Assembly (NCBI GenBank): GCA_016763615.1
Contig: JAESTJ010000050.1
Coordinates: 1 to 13,730 of the forward strand
Direction of reading: 5' to 3'
DNA from: Minisyncoccota bacterium
GTDB taxonomy: Bacteria > Patescibacteriota > Minisyncoccia > Phycocordibacterales > UBA2100
Length of the DNA stretch: 13,730 nucleotides
In this document: in pieces, positions 1 through 11,771 of the stretch
Layout: each line of letters opens with the position of its first letter
Numbering within the stretch: position 1 is the first letter of the stretch
Program-made: the position numbers and the translations under genes
The notes under the pieces: generated by a model
What the model saw: the letters and a program-made list of their open reading frames with translations, nothing else
Database searches by the model: none
What the model was told of the DNA's origin: nothing

Positions 1-2
1 AT

Positions 3-128
3 TTCCTAATTTTGGCACATTTCTTTGTCGATAGTACCTTCACGGCACTCACCATACCAGAGTGTATGGCTCGCGACCGCAAAGCCACTCTCTCCTCGAA
101 CTGCCCTCAAAATAAAGCAAATCGTTAA
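3..128. other. Left-edge block of unresolved identity
   Basis: Roughly the first 115 bases are richer in G and C than the AT-rich stretch that follows. One plus-strand frame is open from base 3 to a stop at 126-128. A minus-strand frame is open from inside the next gene to a TAG at 6-8, and a second minus frame is open to the left edge. None has a convincing start or ribosome binding site. It may be the tail of a neighbouring gene or a non-coding block at the edge of the inserted defence-like operon. I cannot assign it. Confidence 0.25.
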
Positions 129-132
129 ATTA

Positions 133-160
133 TTGAGTATACAAATATAAAGCGTATACT
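133..160 (+). promoter_or_regulatory. Promoter of the OLD-like operon, leaderless type
   Basis: TTGAGT (133-138), 16 nt, TATACT (155-160). The start codon at 169 lies 8 nt after the -10 box, so transcription should begin at or beside the ATG. No Shine-Dalgarno sequence is present. Confidence 0.6.
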
Positions 161-168
161 GGAAAACA

Positions 169-1983
169 ATGAAATATCTAACTTTTGAAATAGAAAATTA
201 TAAAGGGATTCAAAAGACATCATTAGATTTAGAAGGACGAATGAATCCAGGTATTTACACTCTGGTAGGTTTGAATGAAAGTGGTAAGACTACCCTGCTT
301 GAAGCATTAGATTTTTTAAGAAATGGCATTGATGCCTCGGCAATTAATGCAACTAACTTAATTCCTCGACGTCGTAGAAGTTCGTTCACGGGTGCTGTTC
401 AAGTGACCGCATTACTTTCGTTGACGGATCAAGATAAACACAAGCTCGATGATATCGCTGTATCAGGCGGTTTTAAAAACATTATATTACCAGATACTAT
501 AAAATTTATTCGATCTTTTCATTATGAAAAATCTGAATATAAGGGAGAAAATTCTTATACTGAGATTGATATATCTGCATCAAAAAAGGATTCTAAAAAA
601 GAACCCGCAATCTTAGACAGAGACGGAAATCCAGATCTGTTTGAGGTAATAGATGATTTTGTTTTAGAATCCTTACCTGTCGTAGTTTATTACTCTGATT
701 TTTTGTATGATTTCCCCCCAAAGATTTATATAGACGAAGGTGCTTTATCTCCAGTTCAAAAATTTTATAAAAACGTTTTTGAAGATATCCTCACCTCATT
801 AGATGTTGACCTTTCTTTGAAAGAGTTAGCTGACCGCATTCAAAACCCAAAATCAGGACATGCGGATCAGGTCGACGCTTTGATGAATCAATTGACTGAC
901 AAGGTTACAAAAGATGTATTTAGGAAATGGAATGAAATATTTGGCAAAAAACATGAAGATAAAAAGATTCGTTTTGAAAGCGGTATAGAAAAAGTGGAAG
1001 AAGATAAACCTAGTAGAGTTTTTATAAAGGTCTCTCTCATAGATGGCCCAGATCCATATCAAATACGAGAAAGAAGTCTTGGATTTAAATGGTTTTTTGC
1101 TTTTCTTCTTCTAACTATTTTTCGGAAACATCGGAAAAAGGATCAGGATGAGATGCTTTATCTTCTTGATGAGCCAGCTTCAAATCTCCACCCAACGGCC
1201 CAAAAGAAAATATTGCAGACTATTAAGGATCTAGGAGAGGGTAATAGCAGACTCGTATATACAACTCATAGCCATTTCCTTATAAACCCTGAATGGCTTG
1301 AAGGAGCTTTCATTGTAAAGAACAATGCTCTAGATGAAGAAGAAGATCCTCTCTATAGTGATAGTAAAGCTACTGACATAGTCGCTATTAAGTATAGAAC
1401 TTTTGCAGCAGAACATCCTAAGCAGGAAGAATATTTTCAGCCTATTCTTGACACTTTGGACTATCAACCAAGTAATTTAGAAATGATTGAGCCACTTGTG
1501 ATTACGGAGGGCAAGTTTGATTTCTATACGTATACTTATCTTAAAAAACATTATTTCGAAAAATACAAAGGCCTGAATTTTTATCCTGGCGGCGGGGCAG
1601 GATCAAATGATAAAGCTATAGCTTTATATCTGGCGTGGGCAAAAAGATTCTGTGTTTTGCATGATTCAGATAAAGGAGGCAAACTTGCCAAGGAACATTA
1701 TTTTAAAAGATTTGGAGAACACCTTTTGGAAGGGGTGTGTATTACTTATGAAGACATAAATAGTAGTTGGACTAAAAATACAACGGAGTCTCTTTTTAAC
1801 AGTACTGACTTATTAAAAATTCAACAGACACTCTATCCCGATGAGCTGACCTATAAAAAGGATTATTTTAACGAAGCAGTGCAAAAGTTAATTATTGAAA
1901 ATAAAAAAGTTGAATTAGGGAAAAGAACGATCCAAAACTTCGAAAGAGTGTTTAAAAGATTTGGTTCTAATTTAATGAACTAA
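169..1983 (+). CDS. OLD-family ATPase with Toprim nuclease domain
   Basis: A 604-residue protein with an ABC-type ATPase split by a long insert, followed by a Toprim domain. Walker A is GLNESGKT at residues 34-41. Walker B is LYLLDEP around 330-336, with the D-loop SNLHP after it and the switch histidine in TTHSH at 367. The Toprim domain starts near 441: E447 in VITEGKFD is the acidic metal ligand, and D499/D501 in LHDSDKGG form the DxD motif. This is the layout of OLD nucleases, including GajA of the Gabija anti-phage system, where the ATPase controls a DNA-nicking or cutting Toprim centre. Downstream there is no UvrD-like helicase (GajB). Instead a 170-residue protein starts 7 nt later and an HNH nuclease follows. 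The gene is AT-rich compared with the right half of the window, which fits transfer. OLD-like architecture is firm; the defence role is inferred from gene company. Confidence 0.88.
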   Translation: MKYLTFEIENYKGIQKTSLDLEGRMNPGIYTLVGLNESGKTTLLEALDFLRNGIDASAINATNLIPRRRRSSFTGAVQVTALLSLTDQDKHKLDDIAVSGGFKNIILPDTIKFIRSFHYEKSEYKGENSYTEIDISASKKDSKKEPAILDRDGNPDLFEVIDDFVLESLPVVVYYSDFLYDFPPKIYIDEGALSPVQKFYKNVFEDILTSLDVDLSLKELADRIQNPKSGHADQVDALMNQLTDKVTKDVFRKWNEIFGKKHEDKKIRFESGIEKVEEDKPSRVFIKVSLIDGPDPYQIRERSLGFKWFFAFLLLTIFRKHRKKDQDEMLYLLDEPASNLHPTAQKKILQTIKDLGEGNSRLVYTTHSHFLINPEWLEGAFIVKNNALDEEEDPLYSDSKATDIVAIKYRTFAAEHPKQEEYFQPILDTLDYQPSNLEMIEPLVITEGKFDFYTYTYLKKHYFEKYKGLNFYPGGGAGSNDKAIALYLAWAKRFCVLHDSDKGGKLAKEHYFKRFGEHLLEGVCITYEDINSSWTKNTTESLFNSTDLLKIQQTLYPDELTYKKDYFNEAVQKLIIENKKVELGKRTIQNFERVFKRFGSNLMN

Positions 1984-1990
1984 AAGAAGA

Positions 1991-2503
1991 ATGATATTTA
2001 TTATAGGAGTGGATCATGACTGGTATCAACATCTTTCTGATTGGAACGTAGAGTATGTTAATGATCTTAAGGTTGAAGTTCGCTATTTAATAACAGAAGA
2101 AGGCGTTCAGCTTATTGCTGAAGAATCTAGTGTTGCAGGTTTAAAAAAGAGAGGTATTGAGAAGACTGTCGCACAGGAAATTGCTGACGAGTTAGAAATA
2201 CCTCATAAACATATTGATCCTGATCTGGAAGAAAGAGAAGTCCTAGGCATAAGAACTCGTAAAGATGTAGCAAAATCTCTAGGGATAGGTCCTCCTGATG
2301 AAGCAACAGAGGAAGATATAGCTAAGATAAACGAGGACCTCAAGCCTGATTACAGACTCAGGGAAGAGGAGTGGTTGCGTAGAATAGAATCAAACATGAC
2401 AGCTAATATTGCTGTTGTTTGTGGCTTTCAACACGTGGAGTCATTTCAAGAACTTCTTGAAAGCAGGGGATATGATTCTGTGGTTCACGTGATCCTTGAT
2501 TAA
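1991..2503 (+). CDS. Unknown 170-aa protein in the OLD/HNH operon
   Basis: It starts 7 nt after the ATPase stop, with a weak purine-rich AAAGAAGA before the ATG, and is almost certainly co-transcribed. I do not recognise a named domain. The protein looks soluble and acidic. Residues that stand out are GVDHDWYQ at 6-13, EE at 44-45, HKHIDPDLEER at 72-82, REEEW at 124-128 and VVCGFQHVESF at 142-152. A buried strand ending in CG-x-x-H near the C-terminus, an EE pair and an RE-x-x-W helix recall the TIKI/TraB/ChaN/EreA group of metal-dependent proteins, but this is a pattern impression and not an assignment. The H and E residues could form a metal site. Its place between two nuclease genes suggests a regulator, a third effector or a sensor. 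Confidence 0.8.
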   Translation: MIFIIGVDHDWYQHLSDWNVEYVNDLKVEVRYLITEEGVQLIAEESSVAGLKKRGIEKTVAQEIADELEIPHKHIDPDLEEREVLGIRTRKDVAKSLGIGPPDEATEEDIAKINEDLKPDYRLREEEWLRRIESNMTANIAVVCGFQHVESFQELLESRGYDSVVHVILD

Positions 2504-2504
2504 T

Positions 2505-3323
2505 ATGACACATGGGCCTACAAACATAGACTCAAAAGATAAATGTATTTATTGCTACGATTCTAACGTAGAACTTACTGATGAGCATATCGTACCATTT
2601 TCGTTAGGTGGAGTGCATATTATACAGAAGGCTAGTTGTCTAAAATGTAACAAAATTACAACAAAATTTGAACGTAAGGTAGCAAGAGATTTGTGGGGTG
2701 ATGCAAGAATTAGCTATGATGCTCCATCGCGAAGAAAGAAGAATCGTAAGGACTTTATATCTATGGGTAATTCTGAGATACCCGCAAGTGAGTATCCAGC
2801 TGGTCTTGTGTTCTATGAGATGAATATTCCTGGAATTTTACAAGGACTAGCAGAAGACGTAGACATCTCTAAGCTCTGGAAGATGGTAGTCATTCATGAT
2901 GATAAGAGAATGGAAACTTTTTTGAAGGAGAATGCCAATAAGCCGACTTTAAGCTTTCGCAACGTTCCACAAGAGTTTGGGCAGCTACTTGCCAAAATAG
3001 GATACGGTCAGGTGCTTACTAGACTTGATTTGGATGACTTTAACCCTATTTGCCTACCTTATATCACTGGAGAAAAATCTAATGTGTCTTATGTCGTAGG
3101 TGGTGTTTTAACAGATGCTCAACCTATTAAGGAAACGGGTTATATATTAAATACAAAAGGTATTATTATTTCTGACAATAGACTCTTATTAATAGCTGAA
3201 GTTCGACTGTACTCAAATACTCACGCACCTGGATACCAAATAATTGTCGGCGAAATACTTGGATCTGAGAACATCACTCGAGTCATTAAAAAGATGAACT
3301 CTACTGAAAAGGTGATAAATTAG
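2505..3323 (+). CDS. HNH endonuclease with unknown C-terminal domain
   Basis: The ATG at 2505 sits 1 nt after the stop of the previous gene. A TTG at 2496 overlapping that gene is possible but less attractive. From the ATG the protein has 272 residues. The N-terminus carries an HNH nuclease module: CIYC (14-17) and CLKC (45-48) form a treble-clef zinc site, TDEHIVP (25-31) holds the catalytic histidine after an acidic pair, and N49 follows. The remaining 200 residues match no domain I know and may handle substrate or partner binding. No Shine-Dalgarno sequence is visible, so translation is probably coupled to the gene before. An HNH nuclease beside an ABC-type ATPase is the layout of Septu (PtuA/PtuB), but there the ATPase has no Toprim domain. 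The HNH call is firm; the role in defence is inference. Confidence 0.85.
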   Translation: MTHGPTNIDSKDKCIYCYDSNVELTDEHIVPFSLGGVHIIQKASCLKCNKITTKFERKVARDLWGDARISYDAPSRRKKNRKDFISMGNSEIPASEYPAGLVFYEMNIPGILQGLAEDVDISKLWKMVVIHDDKRMETFLKENANKPTLSFRNVPQEFGQLLAKIGYGQVLTRLDLDDFNPICLPYITGEKSNVSYVVGGVLTDAQPIKETGYILNTKGIIISDNRLLLIAEVRLYSNTHAPGYQIIVGEILGSENITRVIKKMNSTEKVIN

Positions 3324-3326
3324 GTC

Positions 3327-3360
3327 AACCACCATTTTAAATTCCCAATCAACTTGGAAA
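3327..3360 (+). repeat. Intergenic repeat, copy A
   Basis: Reads CCACCATTTTAAATTCCCAA then TCAACTTGGAAA. It matches copies B (4514) and D (5617) with a few changes and one fewer T, and lies directly after the HNH stop codon. Confidence 0.6.
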
Positions 3361-3382
3361 CGGACAAGGGTGCACTTCTGCA

Positions 3383-3706
3383 TTACTTCACACGCATAAA
3401 CGGAGAAATTATTATTTTCCCGAAAGTTTCCATAATTGGCATTACTTTTAGTAGAAATACAACAAGCATAAGTGCTAGTGCGTATGGCCAGTTTAAAAAG
3501 AATATTACGATTATTGTTAGCCATCCAGATATTCCGAAAAAGGCAGTCCACGGAGGAGGTGTAGGTGTATCTTTGGGGATGTCACCAAGCTTTTTCCACT
3601 GAATTAACCTAGTGTCATAAATAGATATTGCTTCAGAAATGATATAAAAAACAGATAGCCATAAAATTAAGGGTTGCCCAAATCCAGTTACTAATGTTTC
3701 AATCAT
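3383..3706 (-). CDS. Small membrane protein with three predicted helices
   Basis: A 107-residue protein with hydrophobic segments near residues 12-30, 53-73 and 75-100, separated by a charged and proline-rich loop (DIPKDTPTPPPW). I do not recognise the family. It begins 30 nt after the stop of the upstream minus-strand KTSC gene, so the two may share a transcript, although an AT-rich stretch just before the ATG could also hold a weak -10. No Shine-Dalgarno sequence is seen. The opposite strand has open frames of similar length, but only this frame gives a protein with coherent membrane segments. It sits in the repeat-separated array of small genes. Confidence 0.65.
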   Translation of the reverse strand: MIETLVTGFGQPLILWLSVFYIISEAISIYDTRLIQWKKLGDIPKDTPTPPPWTAFFGISGWLTIIVIFFLNWPYALALMLVVFLLKVMPIMETFGKIIISPFMRVK

Positions 3707-3736
3707 GATGTGAGATAATTTGTTTTACAAAATATT

Positions 3737-3973
3737 TTATCTCTTTGAAGAATAGGGTGGCCTATTCTCGTTTATAAAAGCGTTTAAACCATCCCCAGCA
3801 TCAGCTAGAGCTTTCATTTGATTTAGTACATAAAAGCTCACGCTGTCACCAATGTACTCGTATTCTGAATTGTCCTTAAACCGTATCGTTATTGAATTTT
3901 CGTCGTATTCATAAGCTTCAATATTTGAATCGTTGTCTGTATCTTTATATGATTGCATATAGCTATTGTACAT
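3737..3973 (-). CDS. KTSC-domain protein
   Basis: A 78-residue protein that is nearly all one KTSC domain. The pattern is I-x-x-x-x-Y near residue 18, then a short strand pair with ITIRFKDNSEYEYIGDS, then the helix VLNQMKALADAGDGLNAFI. The family is small, widespread in bacteria and phages, and usually of unknown function; some members sit beside nucleases or lysyl-tRNA synthetase domains. The start is the first ATG, 9 nt after a TATTAT -10 box; a second ATG five codons in is also possible. The three-helix membrane protein follows 30 nt downstream. Confidence 0.75.
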   Translation of the reverse strand: MYNSYMQSYKDTDNDSNIEAYEYDENSITIRFKDNSEYEYIGDSVSFYVLNQMKALADAGDGLNAFINENRPPYSSKR

Positions 3974-3982
3974 CTATTTAAG

Positions 3983-4011
3983 ATAATAGGGTCAGCCGCC
4001 ACCCTTCTTAA
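3983..4011 (-). promoter_or_regulatory. Promoter of the KTSC gene, leaderless type
   Basis: On the minus strand: TTAAGA (4006-4011), 17 nt, TATTAT (3983-3988). The ATG follows after 9 nt. The -35 overlaps intergenic repeat copy E. Confidence 0.5.
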
Positions 4012-4016
4012 AATTT
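3995..4016 (+). repeat. Intergenic repeat, weak copy E
   Basis: GCCGCCACCCTTCTTAAAAT resembles the first third of the stronger copies (consensus CCACCATTTTTAAAC) and has the same orientation. Homology is less certain than for A, B and D. Confidence 0.35.
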
Positions 4017-4047
4017 ATTGTGTAATTCTGGGAAAAGGCGCGTTTTT

Positions 4048-4076
4048 TGCTTTACAAATTTATGGATTGCGATAGT
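4048..4076 (+). promoter_or_regulatory. Extended -10 promoter, leaderless type
   Basis: TTGCTT (4048-4053), 17 nt, GATAGT (4071-4076) with TGC directly before it as an extended -10. The ATG at 4085 is 8 nt beyond the box. Confidence 0.5.
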
Positions 4077-4084
4077 GTGAGATT

Positions 4085-4495
4085 ATGAATTTGTTTGAAT
4101 ATCAGCTCTGGCAAAAAACTAAGACATGGCTTTGGATTATAATTCCGTTGATTCTTGTTTTTCTGTTCATCCAGCCTTACATTTCCTTATTTTTACTTTT
4201 TGTAGTCTTTGGAAGATTTCTATATGTAAAATGGTTACAATCAGCTCTTGATAAATCAGCCGAAGCAAGCGAAGAAGCGTTCCATAAGAATTTGGATGGA
4301 CTTGTTGAAGATATGAAAAGCAAGATGGCAATCGCAAAAACAGAAGAAGAATTAAAAATTATAGAAGATTTTCCAGACGTCCATCTTGATTTCGTGGAGG
4401 AAAAAAACGAGTATCTTGTTACTTACAGAAATGAGATTGCCCACCTTAAGTCTTTTCAAGAGATTCGACAGTGGCTAGGAACAAAGTCTAATTAG
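4085..4495 (+). CDS. Small protein with N-terminal membrane hairpin
   Basis: A 136-residue protein of unknown family. Two hydrophobic segments near residues 15-32 and 33-48 form a probable membrane hairpin. A charged, helical, mostly acidic region follows (about 55-105, rich in E and K, likely coiled coil), with a short mixed C-terminal part. Both termini would face the same side, probably the cytoplasm. The start is supported by a promoter whose -10 ends 8 nt upstream; there is no Shine-Dalgarno sequence. It is bounded by repeat copies E and B. The membrane topology is visible; no function can be given. Confidence 0.7.
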   Translation: MNLFEYQLWQKTKTWLWIIIPLILVFLFIQPYISLFLLFVVFGRFLYVKWLQSALDKSAEASEEAFHKNLDGLVEDMKSKMAIAKTEEELKIIEDFPDVHLDFVEEKNEYLVTYRNEIAHLKSFQEIRQWLGTKSN

Positions 4496-4513
4496 TCTCG
4501 TTTTAAAAGAAGT

Positions 4514-4576
4514 GCCACCACCATTTTTAAACCTACAAACAACTTAAAAATTACCGAAGGGGGTATTTTGGTCGTG
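4514..4576 (+). repeat. Intergenic repeat, copy B (full-length type)
   Basis: It shares CACCATTTTTAAAC (14 of 14) and then most of CYMCAAACAACTTRAAAA with copy D. It also shares a second block, CGAAGGG then 6 nt then TTGGTCGT (4555-4575), with exactly the same spacer length as in D. It lies just after the stop at 4495 and upstream of the promoter of the next gene. Confidence 0.7.
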
Positions 4577-4594
4577 GGGTGGGTTTTTAATTTT

Positions 4595-4603
4595 TGGTAT
4601 ACT
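4595..4603 (+). promoter_or_regulatory. Extended -10 element, leaderless type
   Basis: TGGTATACT (4595-4603) is a perfect TGn extension plus TATACT, ending 7 nt before the ATG at 4611. No good -35 is visible, as often with extended -10 promoters. Confidence 0.5.
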
Positions 4604-4610
4604 GGGAGCA

Positions 4611-4988
4611 ATGAAAGAAGATCTTTCACAAAATAATATTGAAGATAAAAAAAGTACCGACGAGCAAGGAAAAACTGCTCTTGCTCTGGAGTTATTCGAA
4701 AGCGGGGAGGTTTTTGCGTTCCCGGGAATAAAACCCGAGTCTTACACCAAGATAAAGGCGGAGCAAGAGGAGATTCCTGGGTACTCTACTCCGATAGATG
4801 AATTATTAAAGAGATTTCAAAACGAGGGTCTTAAGGTAGTACTTGGAAAAAATCCTGGAACAGGAAATATATACGTATTACCACAGGGGAGTGATGACAT
4901 AGAGAATGATAGTTTTTTCCCAAGGCACTTATCTACCGAAGGAGATATTGATGAGCGATTGCTAAAGTTAATCGGCATGAATAAATAA
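4611..4988 (+). CDS. Unknown 125-aa soluble protein
   Basis: I do not recognise this protein. It has no membrane segment or signal peptide. The first 20 residues are polar and probably disordered. The middle holds ESGEVFAFPGIKPESYTKIK (29-48), followed by a helix with PIDELLKRF and the strand KVVLGKNPGTGNIYVLP. The C-terminus is acidic. The layout suggests a small alpha/beta fold. It is carried alone between repeat copies B and C, with an extended -10 box 7 nt before the ATG and no Shine-Dalgarno sequence. Base composition matches its accessory neighbours. Confidence 0.65.
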   Translation: MKEDLSQNNIEDKKSTDEQGKTALALELFESGEVFAFPGIKPESYTKIKAEQEEIPGYSTPIDELLKRFQNEGLKVVLGKNPGTGNIYVLPQGSDDIENDSFFPRHLSTEGDIDERLLKLIGMNK

Positions 4989-4989
4989 C

Positions 4990-5030
4990 GTCGCCCATCA
5001 CTATTTTTAAACCTTGTGCATATTCCAAAC
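4990..5030 (+). repeat. Intergenic repeat, diverged copy C
   Basis: CGCCCATCACTATTTTTAAA aligns with the CCACCATTTTTAAAC block of copies A, B and D in the same orientation, right after the stop at 4988. The later part (ATTCCAAACAGTTTTGTCG) only loosely resembles the others. Confidence 0.45.
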
Positions 5031-5047
5031 AGTTTTGTCGCTTTATG

Positions 5048-5383
5048 TTATTTATTATTTTCGCACGCTATACCGTCATTATCTCTGTCTAAGTCATGTG
5101 GGTCTTCGGTTGGCCCACCTTGTGATATATAAAATAACTGCGCAGCTTTTTGCGTGGCGAAATCCCCACAGTTTTTGTCGTCTCTCAATAAGCGAGCCTG
5201 TGTTTTTGCTGCGGTCCGTGCGGTTTTAGGGGCAGCCTTCTTGGCTGCTTTTTTAGTGTGACATTGATATTCACCGGTTTTCCGGTTGTTGTGGCACCCC
5301 TCTGCGTTTGTGCGTCCGCCGTGGGCAAGTAGCGTACTTGGTACCAAGAAAGCAAGCGCCAACATGACAACAAAAGTTCTCAT
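5048..5383 (-). CDS. Secreted excalibur-domain protein
   Basis: A 111-residue exported protein. Residues 1-20 form a signal peptide (MRTFVVMLALAFLVPSTLLA). The mature part opens with HGGRTNAEGCH and a following Y-x-CH (21-42), a Cys/His motif common next to excalibur domains and in small secreted nuclease-like proteins, possibly metal binding. A basic A/K/T-rich linker (43-66) leads to an excalibur domain (about 70-108) with NCGDFATQ, the paired cysteines C72 and C107, and the calcium-loop motif DRDNDG at 99-104. Excalibur domains bind calcium in extracellular proteins. The ATG is 3 nt after the stop of the DUF350 gene, so the two form an operon and are probably translationally coupled. There is no catalytic domain, so it may be a surface or wall-associated binding protein. 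Confidence 0.82.
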   Translation of the reverse strand: MRTFVVMLALAFLVPSTLLAHGGRTNAEGCHNNRKTGEYQCHTKKAAKKAAPKTARTAAKTQARLLRDDKNCGDFATQKAAQLFYISQGGPTEDPHDLDRDNDGIACENNK

Positions 5384-5386
5384 GGT

Positions 5387-5605
5387 CTATCCGTTAATAG
5401 TAAACATCACAACCAGTGCCATACCAAGAATTACAGAAGCAATAATAATAGCCATACCCATGTTTCCATTTTTAACTTCTTGCCACTCATCAAGCGGTGC
5501 AATCCATGTGAATATTTTAAGACCGATACTTATAGCTACTGCCATAGAGATAGCTGCGGTAAGTGCCCATCCAAATGTGATTAGATATTGTGTAAATATT
5601 TCCAT
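5387..5605 (-). CDS. DUF350 family small membrane protein
   Basis: A 72-residue protein with two transmembrane helices (about 10-34 and 49-68) joined by the short polar loop APLDEWQEVKNGN. The loop with its E-W-x-E-x-K-x-GN pattern and the following helix MGMAIIIASVILGMALVV are typical of DUF350, a family usually built from one or two such hairpins in the inner membrane and of unknown function. The excalibur protein follows after 3 nt. The ATG lies 6 nt after a TATAGT -10 box, and no Shine-Dalgarno sequence is seen. Confidence 0.72.
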   Translation of the reverse strand: MEIFTQYLITFGWALTAAISMAVAISIGLKIFTWIAPLDEWQEVKNGNMGMAIIIASVILGMALVVMFTING

Positions 5606-5611
5606 ATATGG

Positions 5612-5638
5612 ACTATATCACCATTTTTAAACTCCCAA
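5612..5638 (-). promoter_or_regulatory. Promoter of the DUF350/excalibur operon, leaderless type
   Basis: On the minus strand: TTGGGA (5633-5638), 15 nt, TATAGT (5612-5617), then 6 nt to the ATG. It lies within repeat copy D. The short spacer lowers confidence. Confidence 0.4.
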
Positions 5639-5687
5639 ACAACTTGAAAACAACGTAAAAACGACGAAGGGCTCGCCTTGGTCGTCT
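5617..5687 (+). repeat. Intergenic repeat, copy D (full-length type)
   Basis: It carries CACCATTTTTAAAC, then TCCCAAACAACTTGAAAA, and a second block CGAAGGG-N6-TTGGTCGT (5665-5685) that can pair partly with itself (GACGA with TCGTC, AGG with CCT). It matches copy B over both blocks; D has about 9 extra nt between them. Confidence 0.7.
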
Positions 5688-5724
5688 TAAAACTTCAAAT
5701 TTCAAATTTTTAAACCCAGCACTT

Positions 5725-5751
5725 AATGTCCTAGGGGACCCCTAAGACATT
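5725..5751. repeat. 27-bp near-perfect palindrome upstream of the TA operon
   Basis: AATGTCCTAGGGG, a central A, then CCCCTAAGACATT. The arms are 13 nt with one C/A mismatch. It lies between the divergent DUF350 and antitoxin genes. It is not followed by a T-tract, so a protein-binding site is more likely than a terminator. Confidence 0.6.
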
Positions 5752-5760
5752 TAATTTAAC

Positions 5761-5780
5761 GAACGTTGACAATAACGTTC
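5761..5780. promoter_or_regulatory. Inverted repeat over the TA -35 box
   Basis: GAACGTT-GACAAT-AACGTTC is a perfect 7-bp inverted repeat with a 6-nt spacer that contains most of the TTGACA -35 (5766-5771). It is a likely operator half of the autoregulated toxin-antitoxin promoter. Confidence 0.55.
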
Positions 5781-5797
5781 TACAAAAGTACTATAAT
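5766..5797 (+). promoter_or_regulatory. Promoter of the toxin-antitoxin operon
   Basis: TTGACA (5766-5771), 17 nt, TACTAT (5789-5794); the overlapping TATAAT at 5792-5797 would need a 20-nt spacer. Transcription would start near 5801-5804, giving a leader of about 22 to 25 nt with no Shine-Dalgarno sequence. Confidence 0.55.
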
Positions 5798-5817
5798 ATC
5801 ATACTAAATTATAGTAC
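5788..5817. promoter_or_regulatory. Operator-like inverted repeat over the TA -10 box
   Basis: GTACTATAAT and ATTATAGTAC form a perfect 10-bp inverted repeat with a 10-nt spacer, so the two half-sites are 20 bp (two helical turns) apart. The left arm contains the -10 box. This fits binding of a ribbon-helix-helix antitoxin that represses its own operon. Confidence 0.65.
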
Positions 5818-5825
5818 CATCCAAT

Positions 5826-6035
5826 ATGACCACAATATCAGTACCATTAACTAAAGAACGTGAAGCGCAGCTCGACAATCTCGTCAGTAGCGGTGTAGCG
5901 CCAAACCGTGCTGCAGTCATGCGCAAAGCACTCGACAAACTCGCCGAAGACGAAGCAATACAAGCTGTCTTACGCGCAGAGCGAGAACCAATAATACGAG
6001 GAGATATACGAAAGATTCTTATGGGTTTGGATTAA
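5826..6035 (+). CDS. Ribbon-helix-helix antitoxin
   Basis: A 69-residue protein with an N-terminal ribbon-helix-helix DNA-binding fold of the CopG/ParD type: the strand MTTISVPLT (1-9), a helix with EREAQLDNLVSSG, and NRAAVMRKALDKLAED. The acidic and mixed C-terminus (from about 45) would wrap the toxin. The next gene starts 12 nt later and encodes a RelE/ParE-superfamily protein. RHH antitoxins repress their own promoters, and the inverted repeats over the -35 and -10 boxes fit that. The antitoxin identity is firm from fold plus neighbour. Confidence 0.88.
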   Translation: MTTISVPLTKEREAQLDNLVSSGVAPNRAAVMRKALDKLAEDEAIQAVLRAEREPIIRGDIRKILMGLD

Positions 6036-6047
6036 TCAGCACTTTTT

Positions 6048-6314
6048 ATGCGGGTACAATACAAACCATCTTTCTTGCGAGCTCTTAAAAAACTCCATCC
6101 AGAATTCCAAGAAGAAATAATAGAAAAGATAGAACTGTTTAAAGACCCAAAAAACCACGAACAACTCAAGGTCCATCAGCTAAAAGGAATGTTCAAAAAA
6201 CACTATGGCTTTTCAGTAGACTATCGGTACCGCATTATTTTCCAATATCTCGACAAAACCAAAAAAGAAGCAGTTTTGCTAATCATAGGCGACCATGACG
6301 TCTACAAAAATTAA
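6048..6314 (+). CDS. RelE/ParE-superfamily toxin
   Basis: An 88-residue basic protein with the small alpha/beta fold of RelE-like toxins: VQYKPSFLRALKKL at the start, a helix EEIIEKIELFKDP, HQLKGMFKKHYGFSVDYRYRIIFQY in the central sheet, and the closing strand LLIIGDHDVYKN. The C-terminal GDHDVY with H83 is close to the G-x-H-x-x-Y/F end of YafQ/StbE-like mRNA endonucleases, where the histidine acts in catalysis. R60 and R62 are candidates for RNA contacts. This favours an mRNA interferase over a ParE gyrase poison, but the subfamily cannot be settled by eye. It has no Shine-Dalgarno sequence and is probably translated from the antitoxin message. Confidence 0.87.
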   Translation: MRVQYKPSFLRALKKLHPEFQEEIIEKIELFKDPKNHEQLKVHQLKGMFKKHYGFSVDYRYRIIFQYLDKTKKEAVLLIIGDHDVYKN

Positions 6315-6322
6315 ACCCAGAT

Positions 6323-6352
6323 ACTTTTGTATCGGTTAACCGATACAAAAGT
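6323..6352. repeat. 30-bp perfect palindrome after the toxin gene
   Basis: ACTTTTGTATCGGTT followed by its exact reverse complement AACCGATACAAAAGT, starting 8 nt after the toxin stop. It could form a hairpin with a TTAA tip, but no T-tract follows on either strand, so it is not a standard terminator. A binding site for a dimeric protein or a resolution-type site is possible. Confidence 0.7.
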
Positions 6353-6403
6353 TCTAAACATCGCCTCCTATACCCTAAAACCTAATACCTATACACTAAG
6401 TAT

Positions 6404-6775
6404 ATGGTTCCATTCTCAATATTCGCACTTATTGCCGTATTTGTAGCTTTTGCCGCAGGGTTCTTCTTAGGTAAGAAAAAAGGCCTAAACCGCCAAAGTG
6501 CCGAGCGTATTAGCGGTTTAAATGCAGCCGAAATGGATGAAATGGGCAAAAAGGGTAGAGAAACAACTCAACGGCACATCGCAAAGCGAAAAGAGCGCAT
6601 TATGGATAGGGCAATGCGCCAGGGGCGCATCACTAACGACGACGTTGAAGATCTGTTCTGTGTATCCGATGCTACTGCTCGTAACTATTTAAACGACCTA
6701 GAAGAAGACGGCCAGCTCATCCAAAACGGCGAAAGTGGCCGCGGTGTATTTTATACACCAACAACACGGACATAG
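6404..6775 (+). CDS. Membrane-tethered winged-helix protein
   Basis: A 123-residue protein with one N-terminal transmembrane helix (about 4-23), the stop-transfer segment GKKKGLNR, a charged helical linker (40-70), and a C-terminal helix-turn-helix with wing (about 75-117). ITNDDVEDLFCVSDATARNYLNDLEEDGQL is the helix-turn-helix part, of the DeoR/FUR-like winged type, and GRGVFYTP ends the wing. The DNA-binding domain would face the cytoplasm, so it may be a one-component membrane regulator or may fix DNA to the membrane. A TATACA (6390-6395) lies 8 nt before the ATG, suggesting a leaderless transcript. No target can be named. Confidence 0.75.
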   Translation: MVPFSIFALIAVFVAFAAGFFLGKKKGLNRQSAERISGLNAAEMDEMGKKGRETTQRHIAKRKERIMDRAMRQGRITNDDVEDLFCVSDATARNYLNDLEEDGQLIQNGESGRGVFYTPTTRT

Positions 6776-6809
6776 TTCCAGTTAACCGCAGAAAACAAGC
6801 CATTTTACG

Positions 6810-6875: not shown

Positions 6876-6902
6876 CTTGCTGGATAGGTTGCTGTAAAAA
6901 TT

Positions 6903-6976
6903 GCGACTGTAGCTCAGGTGGTTAGAGCGCGTCACTGATAATGACGAGGTCCCAGGTTCGAGTCCTGGCAGTCGCA
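6903..6976 (+). tRNA. tRNA-Ile (anticodon GAT)
   Basis: A complete 74-nt cloverleaf. The acceptor GCGACTG pairs with CAGTCGC. The D arm is GCTC/GAGC. The anticodon stem CGTCA/TGACG holds the loop CTGATAA with anticodon GAT. The T arm is CCAGG-TTCGAGT-CCTGG, and the discriminator base is A. CCA is not encoded (CAC follows), so it must be added by a nucleotidyltransferase. GAT reads ATC and ATT isoleucine codons. A promoter lies about 65 nt upstream and a hairpin terminator directly downstream, so the gene is a single-tRNA unit. A minus-strand open frame across it is an artefact of tRNA sequence. Confidence 0.95.
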
Positions 6977-6980
6977 CACG

Positions 6981-7023
6981 AAACATCAGAAGGTACCTTT
7001 GTTCGGGCACCTTCTGATGTTTT
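6981..7023 (+). terminator. Terminator of the tRNA-Ile transcript
   Basis: AAACATCAGAAGGT (6981-6994) pairs with ACCTTCTGATGTTT (7009-7022), a 14-bp stem with a 14-nt loop, ending in a short run of T, 5 nt after the tRNA. Confidence 0.75.
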
Positions 7024-7033
7024 GCATGATAGA

Positions 7034-7155
7034 CAGGACTCGAAAGGCGGAAGCCCGCGTGCCAAAGCACGAGTAAGGGCTGAGCCCAGACCAAAAGCAC
7101 TTAGTAGAATTGAGCCTGCAAGGCGTAAATTATACTTAGTGACTGGTGGTCGAAT
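7034..7155 (+). other. GC-rich multi-hairpin segment between tRNA pieces
   Basis: No gene is seen here. Three small stems follow each other: GGC-GGAA-GCC (7046-7055), CGTGC-CAAA-GCACG (7058-7071) and GGGC-TGA-GCCC (7077-7087). CAGGAC at 7034-7039 can pair with GTCCTG at 7156-7161, enclosing them all. CAGGACTCGAA (7034-7044) is also an inverted copy of the tRNA T-arm bases 6957-6967. It is either a structured RNA or rearranged tRNA debris. Confidence 0.35.
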
Positions 7156-7173
7156 GTCCTGGCAGTCGCACCA
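7148..7173 (+). repeat. Degenerate copy of the tRNA-Ile 3' end with CCA
   Basis: GTCCTGGCAGTCGCAC (7156-7171) is identical to 6962-6977 at the 3' end of the tRNA, 194 nt away. Here CCA completes the tail. The T stem is broken (CCAGG is replaced), so it is not a functional tRNA by itself. Confidence 0.7.
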
Positions 7174-7249
7174 AAACTTTTTTCTTTCTTTTTATATACA
7201 GAACGAGTACACTGCAGCGAGTCAAACCTATGTACCTTAGGGGGGTTAC

Positions 7250-8542
7250 ATGAACTACAAAAATGGAACTCAAAAACACGGCCTTCCAGTGTGGAAGGGC
7301 ACAAACTCACTCAAAAAACTCCTCAATATAACCGACGCCAATGGAGTTTTTCTGTATGACGAGAATGGAAAGCGCTATTTTGATTGGAACTCGGGGGTGC
7401 GTTGTGTGTGGCAGCACAAGCATCCAAAGATTGAAAAAGTGCGCAAGGAATATGATGGCGCGCAGTTTGTGCCACTTTCAACGACAACGCCACAGCGCGA
7501 CAAGCTTTGTGCACAAATTTCGCAACGTACAGGCCTGCCAAGGGTGTTTCTTCCCGAAAGTGGGACAGGAGCAACCGCTGCTGCAATCCAGTTTGCGTGG
7601 AGTTTTTTCAAGGGAACAAAACGCAAAAAAATTCTCTCGATTCGACCACGTAGTTATCACGGAGGGGTAGGCTTTGTACTCGAACTCGGCGACGACGCTC
7701 GGCGCAATCTTGTGCCACATTGCCACGAAGATCTTTTTCACAAAGTTTCTTCACCACCAATGTTTTGTGGAGAGACTGAGGGAGAGAAAGTTGCACAGGC
7801 ACTTCATTCTCTTTCGGAAACAATACGAAACCGTGGCTCCGAGACCATAGCCGCAATGATACTTGAGCCGGTGATTGGTACTGGGGGAGTATACCCGCTT
7901 CCAAAAGCGTACCTCGTTGGTGTGCAGGAAATTCTTCGTAAGAACGGAATCCTGTTTATCACTGACGAAATCATGAGTGGGTGTGGTCGCACGGGTAAAA
8001 TGCTCGCAGGAGAACACTCAGGTATCACACCCGACATGGTACTTCTTGGTAAGGGTCTCACCAACGCAGTCTTTCCGCTTGCTGCGGTTGCAGTGAATGA
8101 AGAGATTGCAAAGCACTTCGAGAACAACGTCGTTCCAGCTGGTTCGACGTTCAATGCACATCCCTTTGGTTGTGCGATTGCCTCAAGAGTATTAGAGGTT
8201 TTCGAAGAAGAGAAAGTGTTCGAACACGTTGCCGCAATGGAAGTTGTGGCATGCAAAGAGATGCAATCGCTCGTCGACGAATTCTCGTGTGTCAAAGAGT
8301 TTCGTCTTCTCGGGCTCTTTGGGGCGATTGAACTACAAAGCAAACAAGGGGAGCCATTTCTTCCTAACGATTTGTTTGTTCAAGAACTCCAGTGCGACCT
8401 ACAGAGCCGTGGTCTTCTGACGCTCTTTCGGGGAGGCACCGTGATGTGCAGCCCGCCATTGACCATCACTGCAAATGAACTCAAGGAGGGTTTTCAGATA
8501 ATGCGCCACGGACTACGAGCATGTTCTGAGGCTTTTCTATAA
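7250..8542 (+). CDS. Class III PLP-dependent aminotransferase
   Basis: A 430-residue fold-type I PLP enzyme of aminotransferase class III (the group with omega-transaminases, BioA, ArgD/GabT and glutamate-1-semialdehyde aminomutase). The phosphate-binding loop is SGTGAT (104-109), Y136-H137-G138 stacks on the cofactor ring, D239-E240 in ITDEIMSGCGRTG binds the pyridine nitrogen, K268 in LLGKGLT forms the Schiff base, and T300 in GSTFNAHP contacts the phosphate. All catalytic positions are present, so the enzyme should be active. The substrate cannot be read from sequence. The start is set by a strong Shine-Dalgarno AGGGGGG (7239-7245). No biotin, lysine or heme genes are nearby to suggest a pathway. 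A terminator follows at 8569, so it is probably monocistronic. Confidence 0.92.
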   Translation: MNYKNGTQKHGLPVWKGTNSLKKLLNITDANGVFLYDENGKRYFDWNSGVRCVWQHKHPKIEKVRKEYDGAQFVPLSTTTPQRDKLCAQISQRTGLPRVFLPESGTGATAAAIQFAWSFFKGTKRKKILSIRPRSYHGGVGFVLELGDDARRNLVPHCHEDLFHKVSSPPMFCGETEGEKVAQALHSLSETIRNRGSETIAAMILEPVIGTGGVYPLPKAYLVGVQEILRKNGILFITDEIMSGCGRTGKMLAGEHSGITPDMVLLGKGLTNAVFPLAAVAVNEEIAKHFENNVVPAGSTFNAHPFGCAIASRVLEVFEEEKVFEHVAAMEVVACKEMQSLVDEFSCVKEFRLLGLFGAIELQSKQGEPFLPNDLFVQELQCDLQSRGLLTLFRGGTVMCSPPLTITANELKEGFQIMRHGLRACSEAFL

Positions 8543-8568
8543 AACTCGATGCAAAAAATGTAACTTAT

Positions 8569-8605
8569 ACGCCGCCAGTGTTTCAGCTGGCGGCGTTTTT
8601 CTTTT
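8569..8605 (+). terminator. Rho-independent terminator
   Basis: ACGCCGCCAG (8569-8578) pairs with CTGGCGGCGT (8587-8596): a 10-bp GC-rich stem, 8-nt loop and T-rich tail to 8605. It ends the aminotransferase transcript. Confidence 0.9.
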
Positions 8606-8630
8606 ACTTTCCTAATAGTTGGGATACTAT
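8603..8630 (+). promoter_or_regulatory. Possible promoter of the thioesterase gene
   Basis: TTTACT (8603-8608), 16 nt, TACTAT (8625-8630). The leader would be about 40 nt, and no clear Shine-Dalgarno sequence precedes the ATG at 8678. Confidence 0.35.
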
Positions 8631-8677
8631 TACTTGTAAGGGTACACAGAATACAGTACGTGCCACTCTAAATAAAA

Positions 8678-9214
8678 ATGAAAGAATCCATTAAATTACC
8701 GACCGAATCAGAATCGATACCTATAACAGATTTCGCCAAAGAGGATGGTAGAGAAGTGCTGCTTGCGCATATAGAGAATGCCTTCGAGCTGTACAAAACA
8801 ATGGGTCTTAGCCCAGAGAGTTTTCAGTATTTTGAAGAGGAACAGAAACTAGAGATACAATTTACACCCAGTGAAAACCAAGAGGGTAATGCAGGAGTTA
8901 CGCACGGTGGTGTGTTGGCGTTTATGATTGACGCGAGCGCAGGAGCTTTAGCTATGGCAACTATCGACAAAGAGGATGTGGCGCTTACTGAAAGTACCAA
9001 TACTATAAATGATAGTTTAGTCCGTACAGGAGTTCCTGTTAGCGTCATCTCAACACGTATTGATGAGGGGGAGACTCCTTTGGAGAAACGACTCATATAT
9101 ATTCGCACCGAGGTACATCAGGATTCTAAGTTGGTAGCGCAAGCCGATACAAAATTGAAGTCAGTAAACCTAAAAACCCTAGAGAGAATACACAACAACG
9201 GGAATCATTTGTAA
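8678..9214 (+). CDS. PaaI-type hotdog thioesterase
   Basis: A 178-residue protein with a single hotdog fold of the PaaI/4HBT group, which cleaves acyl-CoA thioesters. The diagnostic motif is VTHGGVLAFMID around 74-85: H76-G77-G78 begins the long hotdog helix and D85 sits where PaaI enzymes have the catalytic acid. The later strands VPVSVISTRI and KRLIYIRTEVHQ-x-x-x-LVAQADTKLK complete the sheet. About 45 N-terminal residues precede the usual domain start and form a helical extension. Members act as homodimers or tetramers on aryl or medium-chain acyl-CoA. No CoA-metabolism gene is adjacent, so the substrate is unknown. It ends in a terminator shared with the convergent YfiH-like gene. Confidence 0.85.
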   Translation: MKESIKLPTESESIPITDFAKEDGREVLLAHIENAFELYKTMGLSPESFQYFEEEQKLEIQFTPSENQEGNAGVTHGGVLAFMIDASAGALAMATIDKEDVALTESTNTINDSLVRTGVPVSVISTRIDEGETPLEKRLIYIRTEVHQDSKLVAQADTKLKSVNLKTLERIHNNGNHL

Positions 9215-9242
9215 ATTCCTTCGGCAGCTAATTAAAAAGAAA

Positions 9243-9282
9243 AATTGCCCGACTTGTAGTTGCAAGTCGGGCAATTGATTTT
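9243..9282. terminator. Bidirectional terminator between convergent genes
   Basis: AATTGCCCGACTTG (9243-9256) pairs with CAAGTCGGGCAATT (9263-9276), a perfect 14-bp stem with a 6-nt loop. On the minus strand it is followed by a T-rich run; on the plus strand GATTTTG follows. It serves the thioesterase and the YfiH-like gene. Confidence 0.9.
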
Positions 9283-9304
9283 GCTAGTCTCAAGAATTCT
9301 CGAG

Positions 9305-10147
9305 TCAGCGATGGTGTACAAGCACCAAATTTCGCTTCTTTTTACGAGGGTCACTGCGAGCACTTGCCCATAGATGACGTCCCGTCCACGTGTCGTGGTA
9401 GGTATCAATACCATCAAAATGTATATGCTGAGAAGGAACTCCACACTCAATGGCTTGCCCGCGAACAATTGCGTGCAAGTCAATCTCGTCCGTAATGTTT
9501 TCGTTCACCAATGCACCTTCGTAACGCCGGCACCAATTCAGCAGAGACGAATTGTATTCGCCATACATGAAGTGATGTCTCTGGTGTTGAAAACCAGTTC
9601 GTATACCACAGAAAAGGTTCATGAAGATGTCTTCCGGAAGAACACCAAGTTCACGGAAAAGCGACAGTGCGTTATGAACCACACTGAAATGTTCACGAGA
9701 AGGTGTTCCTGATATTCCCGATAGCAGAACGGATCTGTCAAAAAGACTATCGCGTCCTGCGTGGAAGCAGAGCATGTGTCTCTCTTTGCGGTCGTACATC
9801 GCGACCGTTGGGCAATCTGCCGAAGTTATCGCAAAAGCTTCGCCCTTAGGGATAAAAACCCCATCAGCAAAACATTTGCCCATGACAGTTTTTCCATCCT
9901 TTTGAACCTCCTTTTTGAATTCAGGAGAGAGGGCGATGGTTGCGTCTGCCTTTGTGGGTACTGGCATCCATAGGCGCTGCACTTCATCAGGCAAGACGTT
10001 CAAGATGTGGTCGAAACCATTGGGATTAGTTCGGTCAAGTTTCCAATCTTGACCTCCCAAAATACCAAAACATCCAACCAATGCCGGCCCGCAGACTTTT
10101 ATGGTTTTTACTACGTGCTCTTTTTGTAAAGGAGCTGATTGTGACAT
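9305..10147 (-). CDS. Divergent YfiH/YlmD (Cu-oxidase_4) family protein
   Basis: A 280-residue protein of the YfiH/YlmD/LACC1 family. Members cleave purine nucleosides by phosphorolysis, deaminate adenosine, or have been called polyphenol oxidases. The core block is visible: ADGVFIP (94-100), ITSADCP with C112, and HAG with H129; C112 and H129 match two zinc ligands of the family. The C-terminal EIDLHAIVRGQAIECGVP (221-238) matches the conserved DL-x-x-x-x-R-Q-L-x-x-x-GV block. The upstream Q-V-HG motif that gives the first metal histidine is not visible (MPVPTKADAT is in its place), HAGWRG is HAGRDS, and the usual S-Y/F-RR block is changed to ASARSD. It may therefore have altered chemistry. 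The start is set by AGGAGG (10155-10160) 7 nt before the ATG. It ends with TGA. Confidence 0.8.
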   Translation of the reverse strand: MSQSAPLQKEHVVKTIKVCGPALVGCFGILGGQDWKLDRTNPNGFDHILNVLPDEVQRLWMPVPTKADATIALSPEFKKEVQKDGKTVMGKCFADGVFIPKGEAFAITSADCPTVAMYDRKERHMLCFHAGRDSLFDRSVLLSGISGTPSREHFSVVHNALSLFRELGVLPEDIFMNLFCGIRTGFQHQRHHFMYGEYNSSLLNWCRRYEGALVNENITDEIDLHAIVRGQAIECGVPSQHIHFDGIDTYHDTWTGRHLWASARSDPRKKKRNLVLVHHR

Positions 10148-10204
10148 GAGATATCCTCCTGTAGGTAAGTTGTCACTAGGTTGCCTCTAGGAGGCTCTAC
10201 TCGA

Positions 10205-10233
10205 TATAATGACACATAGAAAATCTGTGTCAA
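10205..10233 (-). promoter_or_regulatory. Promoter of the YfiH-like gene
   Basis: On the minus strand: TTGACA (10228-10233), 17 nt, ATTATA (10205-10210). The leader is about 50 nt and contains a small hairpin (GCCTC-CTA-GAGGC). Confidence 0.55.
10210..10232. promoter_or_regulatory. Operator-like inverted repeat in the YfiH promoter
   Basis: TGACACA and TGTGTCA form a perfect 7-bp inverted repeat with a 9-nt spacer. It fills the spacer and most of the -35 of the promoter, a position where a dimeric repressor would block RNA polymerase. Confidence 0.5.
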
Positions 10234-10247
10234 ATGTTATGTAAATG

Positions 10248-11663
10248 TTACGAAAAATTAGTATCGAGCCACTCAGGGAGTGTATCAAGTGCTCCGTCTA
10301 AGTTTCCGGATGTTAATACAAGAAGTACTGAGTTCTCATCCAATGCACTCTGTAGGTGCTCATGGATTTCCTCGGCAGTGTTCACTGCTTTAGCAGAAAC
10401 GTCTGCGGCATTAATTCTTTCCGTAATTTCTTTCTGAGAGAGCTGCTTGTGTGTGTCAGCACCTTGTTCAGCAGGGTGAAATACAAGCACCTCTCGCACC
10501 CCTTCAAAAACAGTGTCGTACCAACTTAGAGCATCATGGTTACGCCAACTAAAGGTGTGCGGCTCAAAGAGAACTACCATTTTTTTATCAGGGTAGTGTA
10601 GCTGGATTGCTTCTATGGCTGCACGAGCCTTTTCATACGAAGAACCAAACCCTTCATACGCAGGAACAGTTGCAGTAGTAGTAACTTTGTTTAGTCGTCG
10701 CTTCACACCAGAGAAGTCTGTTAGAGCACTTTCAAGTTCTTCAGGAGTCACCAGTTCACGGGTAAGAAGAGCTGCGGCAGCACCTACAATGTTTTGGACA
10801 TTATGAGCGCCAAGGAGTTTTGTAGTGAGTTGAATTATTATCTCGCCGTCATGAGTTAAATCAAACGTAGTGGTTTCTCCGTAGGTAATATTTTCTGCTC
10901 GCCAAAGACTACCTTCTTCAAGGCCATACGTTATGTATTGTGGTGCGTATTCGAGAACTTCACTTACTCCTCCATTGTCAGTACATGCAATTAAAAGGCC
11001 ATGTTCTGGCATTTTTTTAAGTAGTTCGATAAACGGCTGCACATATTTCTTGTATGTTGGAAAAACATTCACATGGTCGTGTCCAACTGAGGTAAGAAGT
11101 ACGTCATCGGCATTAAAGTGTAGAAATTTTGAAGAGTCGTCCCAGTGTGCGGTGGGGTATTCGTCTCCTTCAATAACTGAAACCTCTCCCGAACCTTTAT
11201 GAGAGGTAAATTCCATGGCGATGTTCATCGGGTACGCACCTATGAAATACGTGGGATCTTTTCCAGCATGCAGTAAAACCCAACTCAGGATGCTCGTTAC
11301 AGTAGATTTTCCATAGCTTCCAGCTACTATTATTTTGTGCGTATCAGAAATTATTTCTGCAACAACTTCAGGGAATGATTGTATTTCTACACCCATCTCA
11401 TGAGCGTGTGCAACTTCAGCGTTTGTTTCAGGATTTAAATTTGCATTGCGACCAATAACAACTAAATCTACATCTTCAGGAATGTTCGAAGCTCGGTAGC
11501 CTTCGAAGAACTGAACACCGAGCTTTTCAACATAGGTACTAGCAGGAGGGTAGAAGGCATCGTCTGAACCGCTCACATCCCATCCATCATCGAGTAAGAG
11601 TTTTGCAGTTGCGCTCATAGCGACCCCAGCAATACCAATTATGTGAACTTTTTTTGACGTCAT
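10248..11663 (-). CDS. mpl: Mpl-like UDP-N-acetylmuramate-peptide ligase
   Basis: A 471-residue Mur-ligase family protein, closest to Mpl, which attaches the recycled tripeptide L-Ala-gamma-D-Glu-meso-DAP to UDP-MurNAc; MurC is the alternative. The N-terminal Rossmann part opens with VHIIGIAGVAMSATA (6-20). The ATP loop is GSYGKST (115-121) instead of the usual GTHGKTT. EGDEYPTAHWDDSSKF and the later GHDHVNVFP match the Mpl E-x-DEY-x-x-x-x-x-D and DHxD blocks. GVKRRLN matches the linker before domain 3, and EPHTFSWRN the Mpl EPRS-x-T region. The D-F-AHHP signature of domain 3 is replaced by EGFGSS. The ATG at 11663 is chosen because its promoter ends 10 nt upstream; the frame stays open 38 codons further, but that part has no homology-like pattern and crosses the promoter. 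Confidence 0.8.
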   Translation of the reverse strand: MTSKKVHIIGIAGVAMSATAKLLLDDGWDVSGSDDAFYPPASTYVEKLGVQFFEGYRASNIPEDVDLVVIGRNANLNPETNAEVAHAHEMGVEIQSFPEVVAEIISDTHKIIVAGSYGKSTVTSILSWVLLHAGKDPTYFIGAYPMNIAMEFTSHKGSGEVSVIEGDEYPTAHWDDSSKFLHFNADDVLLTSVGHDHVNVFPTYKKYVQPFIELLKKMPEHGLLIACTDNGGVSEVLEYAPQYITYGLEEGSLWRAENITYGETTTFDLTHDGEIIIQLTTKLLGAHNVQNIVGAAAALLTRELVTPEELESALTDFSGVKRRLNKVTTTATVPAYEGFGSSYEKARAAIEAIQLHYPDKKMVVLFEPHTFSWRNHDALSWYDTVFEGVREVLVFHPAEQGADTHKQLSQKEITERINAADVSAKAVNTAEEIHEHLQSALDENSVLLVLTSGNLDGALDTLPEWLDTNFS

Positions 11664-11673
11664 ATATGAAGAA

Positions 11674-11702
11674 AATATAGCATTTGTGCCGTCTATGAAC
11701 AA
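11674..11702 (-). promoter_or_regulatory. Promoter of the Mpl-like gene, leaderless type
   Basis: On the minus strand: TTGTTC (11697-11702), 17 nt, TATATT (11674-11679) with TGC before it (extended -10). Only 10 nt separate it from the ATG at 11663, and no Shine-Dalgarno sequence is seen. Confidence 0.6.
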
Positions 11703-11732
11703 AGGTGGTTTGTGCCCGACATTTTGACACCC

Positions 11733-11761
11733 TTGACTAGATACAGTAAGTATGGTATTAT
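11733..11761 (+). promoter_or_regulatory. Promoter of the SleB-like hydrolase
   Basis: TTGACT (11733-11738), 17 nt, TATTAT (11756-11761) with TGG before it (extended -10). It is one of the best promoters in the window and diverges from the Mpl promoter about 30 nt away. Confidence 0.7.
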
Positions 11762-11771
11762 AAATATTGGA

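Follow-up and report, generated by a model that had tools for sequence, protein, structure and literature searches.

Three genes that follow one another on the same strand raise the question of whether they form a single anti-phage system or have merely come to lie side by side. They are found at the start of contig JAESTJ010000050.1 (C34) in assembly GCA_016763615.1 of a Minisyncoccota bacterium (522 kb, 62% complete); the window analysed here is this whole contig of 13,730 bases. The first gene encodes an OLD-type nuclease, the second (hereafter the middle gene) a small protein resembling TraB, TIKI and ChaN, and the third a Cys4-HNH protein. An earlier note on this DNA had proposed that the three make up one candidate undescribed anti-phage system. 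We instead put the probability at about two in three that the locus is a stack of accessory genes that were acquired separately and are probably transcribed together. Three accessory genes, each moving independently, would have come to adjoin here, and a shared function of the trio is not needed to explain the data. The genes are real, and a conserved three-part system finds no support.

The evidence that carries this reading comes from loci of relatives. Profiles of all three proteins were run at E<=1 against 2,693 open reading frames (ORFs) from 29 loci, comprising 17 HNH, 3 middle-protein and 9 ATPase loci. A second partner was found at this threshold in none of the 17, none of the 3 and none of the 9, while the same profiles recovered all three genes in the window. 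Two further, more distant ATPase loci (L032 and L033, 30-32% identity) also lacked a second partner. Upstream sequence of at least 1.3 kb was available in 15 of the 17 HNH loci, with less in L006 and L012, and the middle-protein loci offered at least 7.9 kb on either side; the downstream flank was short or nil in ATPase loci L040 and L041. The HNH relative of L017, split across two frames, was counted unjoined, and in L013 the locus ends within the HNH match. The counts leave out a weak partial HNH match (L019), three of the four plasmid HNH matches (H22-H24, 26-34% identity), the match in genome G254 (19 bits, 3 stops) and the weak ATPase matches L026-L029. Within all loci read the three genes are thus neighbours only here, and the proposal of one three-gene system was not borne out.

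Elsewhere the genes keep other company. The ATPase gene adjoins HsdR and HsdS genes in L043; its neighbours are HsdS and an N6-methylase with an HSDR_N_2 domain in two more loci, adjacent in L045 and about 4 kb off in L044. A RadC gene and then a Schlafen group 3 (SLFN-g3) helicase gene are its neighbours in L047, and an SLFN-g3 helicase gene in L032; no partner was evident in L042 and L040. The first three of these loci (ATPase at 6993-8765 in L043, 6826-8631 in L044 and 6969-8795 in L045) come from three bacteria belonging to different families of the same order. The ATPase gene there lies between HsdS and HsdR, or beside HsdS with an N6-methylase near, and in this group an OLD nuclease may accompany type I restriction as a passenger or serve it as a back-up. 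A 168-amino-acid protein, by eye similar to the TIR/ThsB type, is encoded two genes from the ATPase in L044 (9705-10211). In L047 (9766-11673) and L032 (3393-5459) the helicase (PF09848) lies upstream of the OLD-like ATPase, directly in L032 and with RadC intervening in L047, an arrangement that recalls Gabija but has another kind of helicase; further matches of the L032 helicase protein are to S24 peptidase and, at a weak level, to GIY-YIG.

The middle-protein gene stands beside unrelated genes in the three other genomes in which it was found, namely a DUF2268 protease gene (L030), a gene for a 318-amino-acid protein without a Pfam match (L031) and a reverse transcriptase gene on the opposite strand (L051). 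In L051 (8735-10557) the homologue is convergent to the reverse transcriptase (RVT_1), which itself follows an ORF with an XRE-like helix-turn-helix by eye; a retron or DRT-type locus is possible there. The nearest relatives lie outside the loci read, namely P0002 (on an 847-base contig), P0003 (6,559 bases) and P0124-P0127, and the longest contigs of the three middle-protein matches differ from those of the nearest ATPases (P0127, 719,437 bases; P0126, 8,069; P0124, 2,841; P0125, 2,167).

In the window, the ORFs were confirmed as the earlier note had described them, with 7 nucleotides between the OLD and middle genes and 1 nucleotide between the middle and HNH genes (Table 1). A mechanical ORF list starts the HNH gene at a TTG (position 2496). 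The ATG at 2505, which opens an M-x-x-G N-terminus common to the relatives, is the likelier start because the relatives begin there. The domain calls held as well, with matches to AAA_15 and HNH_5 and with the conserved residues given in the table.

Table 1. Features of the three-gene locus, in window coordinates.
Feature	Position	Strand	Basis or remark
Promoter-like match 5' of the OLD gene, unproven	133..160	+	9/12 positions match
OLD-type nuclease gene, 604 amino acids	169..1983	+	ABC ATPase about residues 1-373, Toprim about 440-560; Pfam, relatives
Walker A, GLNESGKTT, residues 34-42	268..294	+	G34, G39, K40, T41 invariant in 21/21
Walker B end, D334-E335-P336	1168..1176	+	Invariant in alignment A3
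Toprim acidic residues E447, D499, D501	1507..1671	+	20/20, 20/20, 19/20
Middle gene, TraB/TIKI/ChaN-like small protein, 170 amino acids, putative hydrolase	1991..2503	+	
Cys4-HNH protein gene, 272 amino acids, ATG start	2505..3323	+	HNH_5 PF14279, relatives
HNH core C14xxC17 ... E27-H28 ... C45xxC48 ... T52xxF55-E56	2544..2672	+	Invariant in 20/20

Given this spacing, co-expression of the three genes appears probable. The spacing also heads the points that weigh against independent acquisition, since it is tighter than chance stacking needs and hints at selection for co-expression. The others concern how far the loci reach. The HNH loci came from a two-pattern scan, in which 15 of 42 stretches were confirmed; the matches listed were the best 120 of 371 for HNH and the best 120 of 2130 for the ATPase; and the middle protein was sought in whole genomes of this phylum only. 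The counts also exclude 67 plasmid records whose ATPase matches are distant (20 of them listed, at 23-30% identity), and no common gene was evident beside the HNH genes by eye from ORF starts, without a family search. A conserved trio would show on the contigs of P0002, P0003 and P0124-P0126, which are outside the loci read.

These points leave room for a three-gene defence system confined to one lineage, in which the OLD ATPase would sense infection, the TraB-like hydrolase would modify or release an inhibitor or signal, and the Toprim and HNH nucleases would destroy DNA or tRNA. The genes are co-directional and tightly spaced, the key residues are present in all three proteins, and OLD-HNH dyads and OLD-TOPRIM modules are known from defence loci (PMC12839542). 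We nevertheless regard such a system as unlikely: the 29 loci and the two distant ones gave no second example, the HNH relatives at 41-59% identity have no common partner by eye, and PADLOC gave no match for the window HNH protein and a single match (E 0.063) for the 20 aligned members of its family. In the more specific form of an OLD system with two nucleases and a hydrolase as its switch, joining OLD, a TraB/TIKI hydrolase and Cys4-HNH in a few ultra-small bacteria, the proposal appears quite unlikely. If it were true, the locus would add to Gabija, retrons and PARIS another OLD class, one that combines two nucleases with a hydrolase. If the locus is ordinary, it calls for caution, as tight spacing alone lends unrelated accessory genes the look of a system.

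The distribution of the three genes among genomes (counts include the source genome) is patchy. Among 70 family genomes the HNH gene occurs in the source genome alone (E<=1e-3), and it occurs in 1 of 324 genomes of a class sample at E<=1e-20; it was not found in the other 69 or the other 323 at these thresholds. The ATPase occurs in 7 of the 70 family genomes; the six besides the source genome score no better than 6.4e-33, the best of them at 30% identity. It was further found in 5 of 397 genomes of the order (1e-40) and in 2 of 379 of the phylum (1e-60). Matches to the middle protein were obtained in 4 of 379 genomes of the phylum, one of them doubtful, and in 2 of 334 of the class, the samples overlapping. 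In 11 chosen genomes, middle-protein matches were found in G846, G324 and G091 (G254 being doubtful), and the one ATPase match that these genomes gave at E<=1e-20 was partial (5.1e-31) and lay on a different contig of G091. The earlier note had seen an AT-rich, transferred look. Acquisition is supported by the rarity of the HNH and ATPase genes in the family better than by AT-richness: the trio has a GC content of 34-39% (27-31% at third codon positions), and AT-richness was ruled out as its mark because unrelated genes as far as 4988 likewise have 34-39%.

The same patchiness bears on the idea that the OLD gene is a housekeeping gene and the cluster has no defensive role. An archaeal OLD ATPase has a cell-cycle role and seems to take no part in defence (PMC12796447). 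Against this stand the scattered occurrence in 7 of 70 family genomes with such weak matches, the three relatives beside type I restriction genes and four relatives that sit on viral contigs, which together make a housekeeping role very improbable.

The OLD protein matched the Pfam families AAA_15 (2.4e-23) and AAA_21 (4.5e-17), and 2130 relatives were found at E<=1e-3 among 7997 candidates scored. The nearest named ones among the matches listed belong to Candidatus Paceibacteria of the Patescibacteria group, with Bacteroidota lower down. In A3, the 21-row family alignment of the OLD ATPase, D334, E335 and H367 are unchanged in all rows, like the Walker A residues. The one row that stops ahead of Toprim is that of P0127, and D501 is replaced by N in one of the 20 others. 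P0127, at 75% identity the nearest relative of the ATPase, is 411 amino acids long and represents 36 contigs of up to 719 kb; it may be an OLD form reduced to the ATPase, or its gene may be truncated. The window protein itself matches no Toprim Pfam model, while PF20469 (OLD-like_TOPRIM) is matched by 3 and Toprim_2 by 2 of the 21 aligned members. By profile, the best match overall was the ATPase of retron Ec83 (1.2e-7) and the best OLD structure that of Thermus scotoductus (T. scotoductus OLD, PDB 6P74, 3.7e-7); no close solved relative was found by sequence.

OLD genes of class 1 stand isolated, those of class 2 (Gabija) come with a UvrD-like helicase and those of class 3 occur in retrons; the nuclease activity of class 1 enzymes depends on metal, and in vivo P2 Old requires its ATPase as well as its nuclease activity (PMC7049728 and PMC10568477). 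YbjD produces anti-phage phenotypes upon induced expression with Toprim dispensable (PMC13261556). By analogy with the known class 1 proteins, the OLD gene would encode an ATP-regulated DNA nuclease that probably acts against phages or plasmids, and ATP binding with ABC dimerisation would gate a two-metal Toprim DNA nuclease. An anti-phage function of the OLD gene alone is plausible because three relatives adjoin type I restriction genes.

The middle gene gains a likely identity, as a member of a TraB/TIKI-like family of very small proteins for which Pfam has no model. The predicted fold of its product is that of the TraB/TIKI/ChaN superfamily, which suggests that it is likely a minimal member. 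It shares with the TraB/PrgY/TIKI/ChaN/Ere superfamily this fold and conserved residues in the order H...E...R...H, but has just 170 amino acids and no Pfam model above cut-off. Pfam TraB (PF01963) matched none of five family members at E<=10, and hhalign of the family against two small TraB alignments returned probabilities of 22.8% and 0.6%, confined to the C-terminal motif, with 0.9% for an unrelated control. H9, E44 and H148 are invariant in 6/6 members. In comparison with the 2His/2Glu site of VvRRSP and EreC, the second Glu is absent: EreC has E47 one turn ahead of the first His, where the family has G6 and D, N or K at position 8 (D8 in 4/6). From the predicted fold and the conserved residues, the protein is likely a water-activating His/Glu hydrolase and would act as such here. 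The earlier note's third conserved protein is thus a real family, but a sparse one: a word search of 5.8 billion proteins returned three members including the window's own, and the overlapping samples of 379 and 334 genomes added three genomes beyond its own, one doubtful match not being counted. The best viral fold matches (BFVD) were A0A481YWY5, a Marseillevirus TraB-family protein, and A0A873WCW8 (E 0.011), an uncharacterized 187-amino-acid protein of Klebsiella phage Miami; phages may thus carry small proteins of the TraB-like kind.

The HNH protein matched HNH_5 (PF14279) with 33.7 bits against a cut-off of 27.5 (E 3.5e-8) and has the Cys4-HNH core CxxC...H...CxxC, with C14, C17, H28, C45 and C48 present in 20/20 aligned members. 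Position 49 corresponds, as we take it, to the Asn in H-N-H; the residue there is N in the window protein, A in 18/20 and E in 1/20. The family numbers 371 proteins at E<=1e-3 including the window's own; apart from the latter, the best 120, which were listed, have 48-61% identity. Fifteen genome loci with 41-59% identity come from Nitrospinaceae, Latescibacterota, Dehalococcoidia, Uhrbacteria, a Patescibacteria bacterium and proteobacteria, the last presumably alpha-, beta- and gammaproteobacteria; one further locus is a viral contig (L018) and one a plasmid (51% identity). This family (A2; L003-L018 and L052) extends over several phyla at about 41-61% identity along the whole length, with no evident fixed partner, and is put on record here as such. 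Judging from the motif, the protein is likely an autonomous nuclease, and it would act as one at this locus.

The earlier note had derived all three genes from one promoter. Only 168 bases of contig precede the OLD gene, and 15 promoter-like sites, including that in Table 1, were counted in positions 1-4100 against 14.5 +/- 4.3 in shuffles; therefore a single promoter cannot be shown. Downstream, the next gene (3383-3706) lies on the opposite strand. The GC content of the window changes from mostly 33-44% (1-6800) to mostly 40-50% (6900-13730), with the shift near a tRNA-Ile gene (6903-6977), and returns to 38-39% at the far end. The left part holds small accessory genes (KTSC-like, Excalibur, toxin-antitoxin, DUF350), whereas genes for metabolism and the cell wall predominate in the right part. 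A likely toxin-antitoxin pair at 5826-6314 consists of a 69-amino-acid antitoxin-like ORF, recognised by eye, and an 88-amino-acid ParE/HigB-like toxin, with Pfam matches just under the cut-off.

Among known systems, the OLD gene resembles the class 1 proteins T. scotoductus OLD (TsOLD, 6P74), phage P2 Old and Escherichia coli YbjD, which share an ABC ATPase and a C-terminal Toprim in a single chain and likewise have no UvrD-like helicase partner. The window protein is about 80 amino acids longer than TsOLD (525 amino acids), and its gene does not stand isolated here; no helicase match was obtained in the 19 window ORFs, but two genes follow closely and the contig edge lies just upstream. Next to the OLD gene neither a helicase gene nor one for AriB or a reverse transcriptase was found, and the locus is therefore not Gabija, PARIS or a retron. 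The earlier note's view that the set belongs to no Gabija, Septu or PARIS type agrees with the profile searches (Pfam, PADLOC), which returned no helicase, PtuB or AriB. GajA of Gabija is also an OLD ATPase with Toprim, but its UvrD-like helicase GajB has no counterpart by Pfam in the 19 ORFs of this contig, which begins 168 bases upstream of the OLD gene and carries the HNH cluster downstream. For PARIS, AriA was the top PADLOC match of the ATPase (3.4e-24), the best 25 of whose 111 matches were listed; its 373-position profile (PDLC02979) covers residues 1-372, thus only the AAA_15-like ATPase part, and was rejected as evidence. AriB was matched by none of the other 9 ORFs scanned, and DUF4435 is absent from the 19. 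For a retron or class 3 OLD, no RVT match was obtained in the 19 ORFs, and Rfam at the gathering threshold gave one tRNA only.

The PADLOC library contains PtuB models, so the HNH protein, with no match at E<=1, is not recognisable as PtuB of Septu. Septu joins PtuA, an ATPase, with the HNH protein PtuB and is like the window in having an ABC ATPase and HNH in one cluster; it differs in that the window ATPase bears a Toprim and a third gene lies between. Two of the genes could still cooperate with the third as a passenger, most simply OLD and HNH in a Septu-like pair with the middle gene inserted, or else OLD and the TraB-like protein. Septu itself pairs an AAA-type ATPase with an HNH protein (PMC10952713), and PtuA models match the ATPase at 2.3e-12. 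Since PtuA ranks under AriA, Old and AbiLi, this match points to generic ABC similarity, and with an HNH protein outside the PADLOC models and no pair recurring in the loci read, such cooperation is distinctly improbable.

The trio is not named in the titles and abstract openings found on OLD-HNH-Toprim, TraB or ChaN-like phage defence, which is no proof of absence. Among the window ORFs scanned no BREX protein was recognised. The closest likeness in print is to the OLD-ABC and HNH dyads of BREX loci, in which an OLD ATPase is likewise linked to an HNH gene; HNH-OLD dyads are already known (PMC12839542). That work names the joining of OLD ATPases to nucleases of various kinds as a theme, and in its dyads HNH replaces the Toprim nuclease, whereas the window has both, with a TraB-like gene between them.

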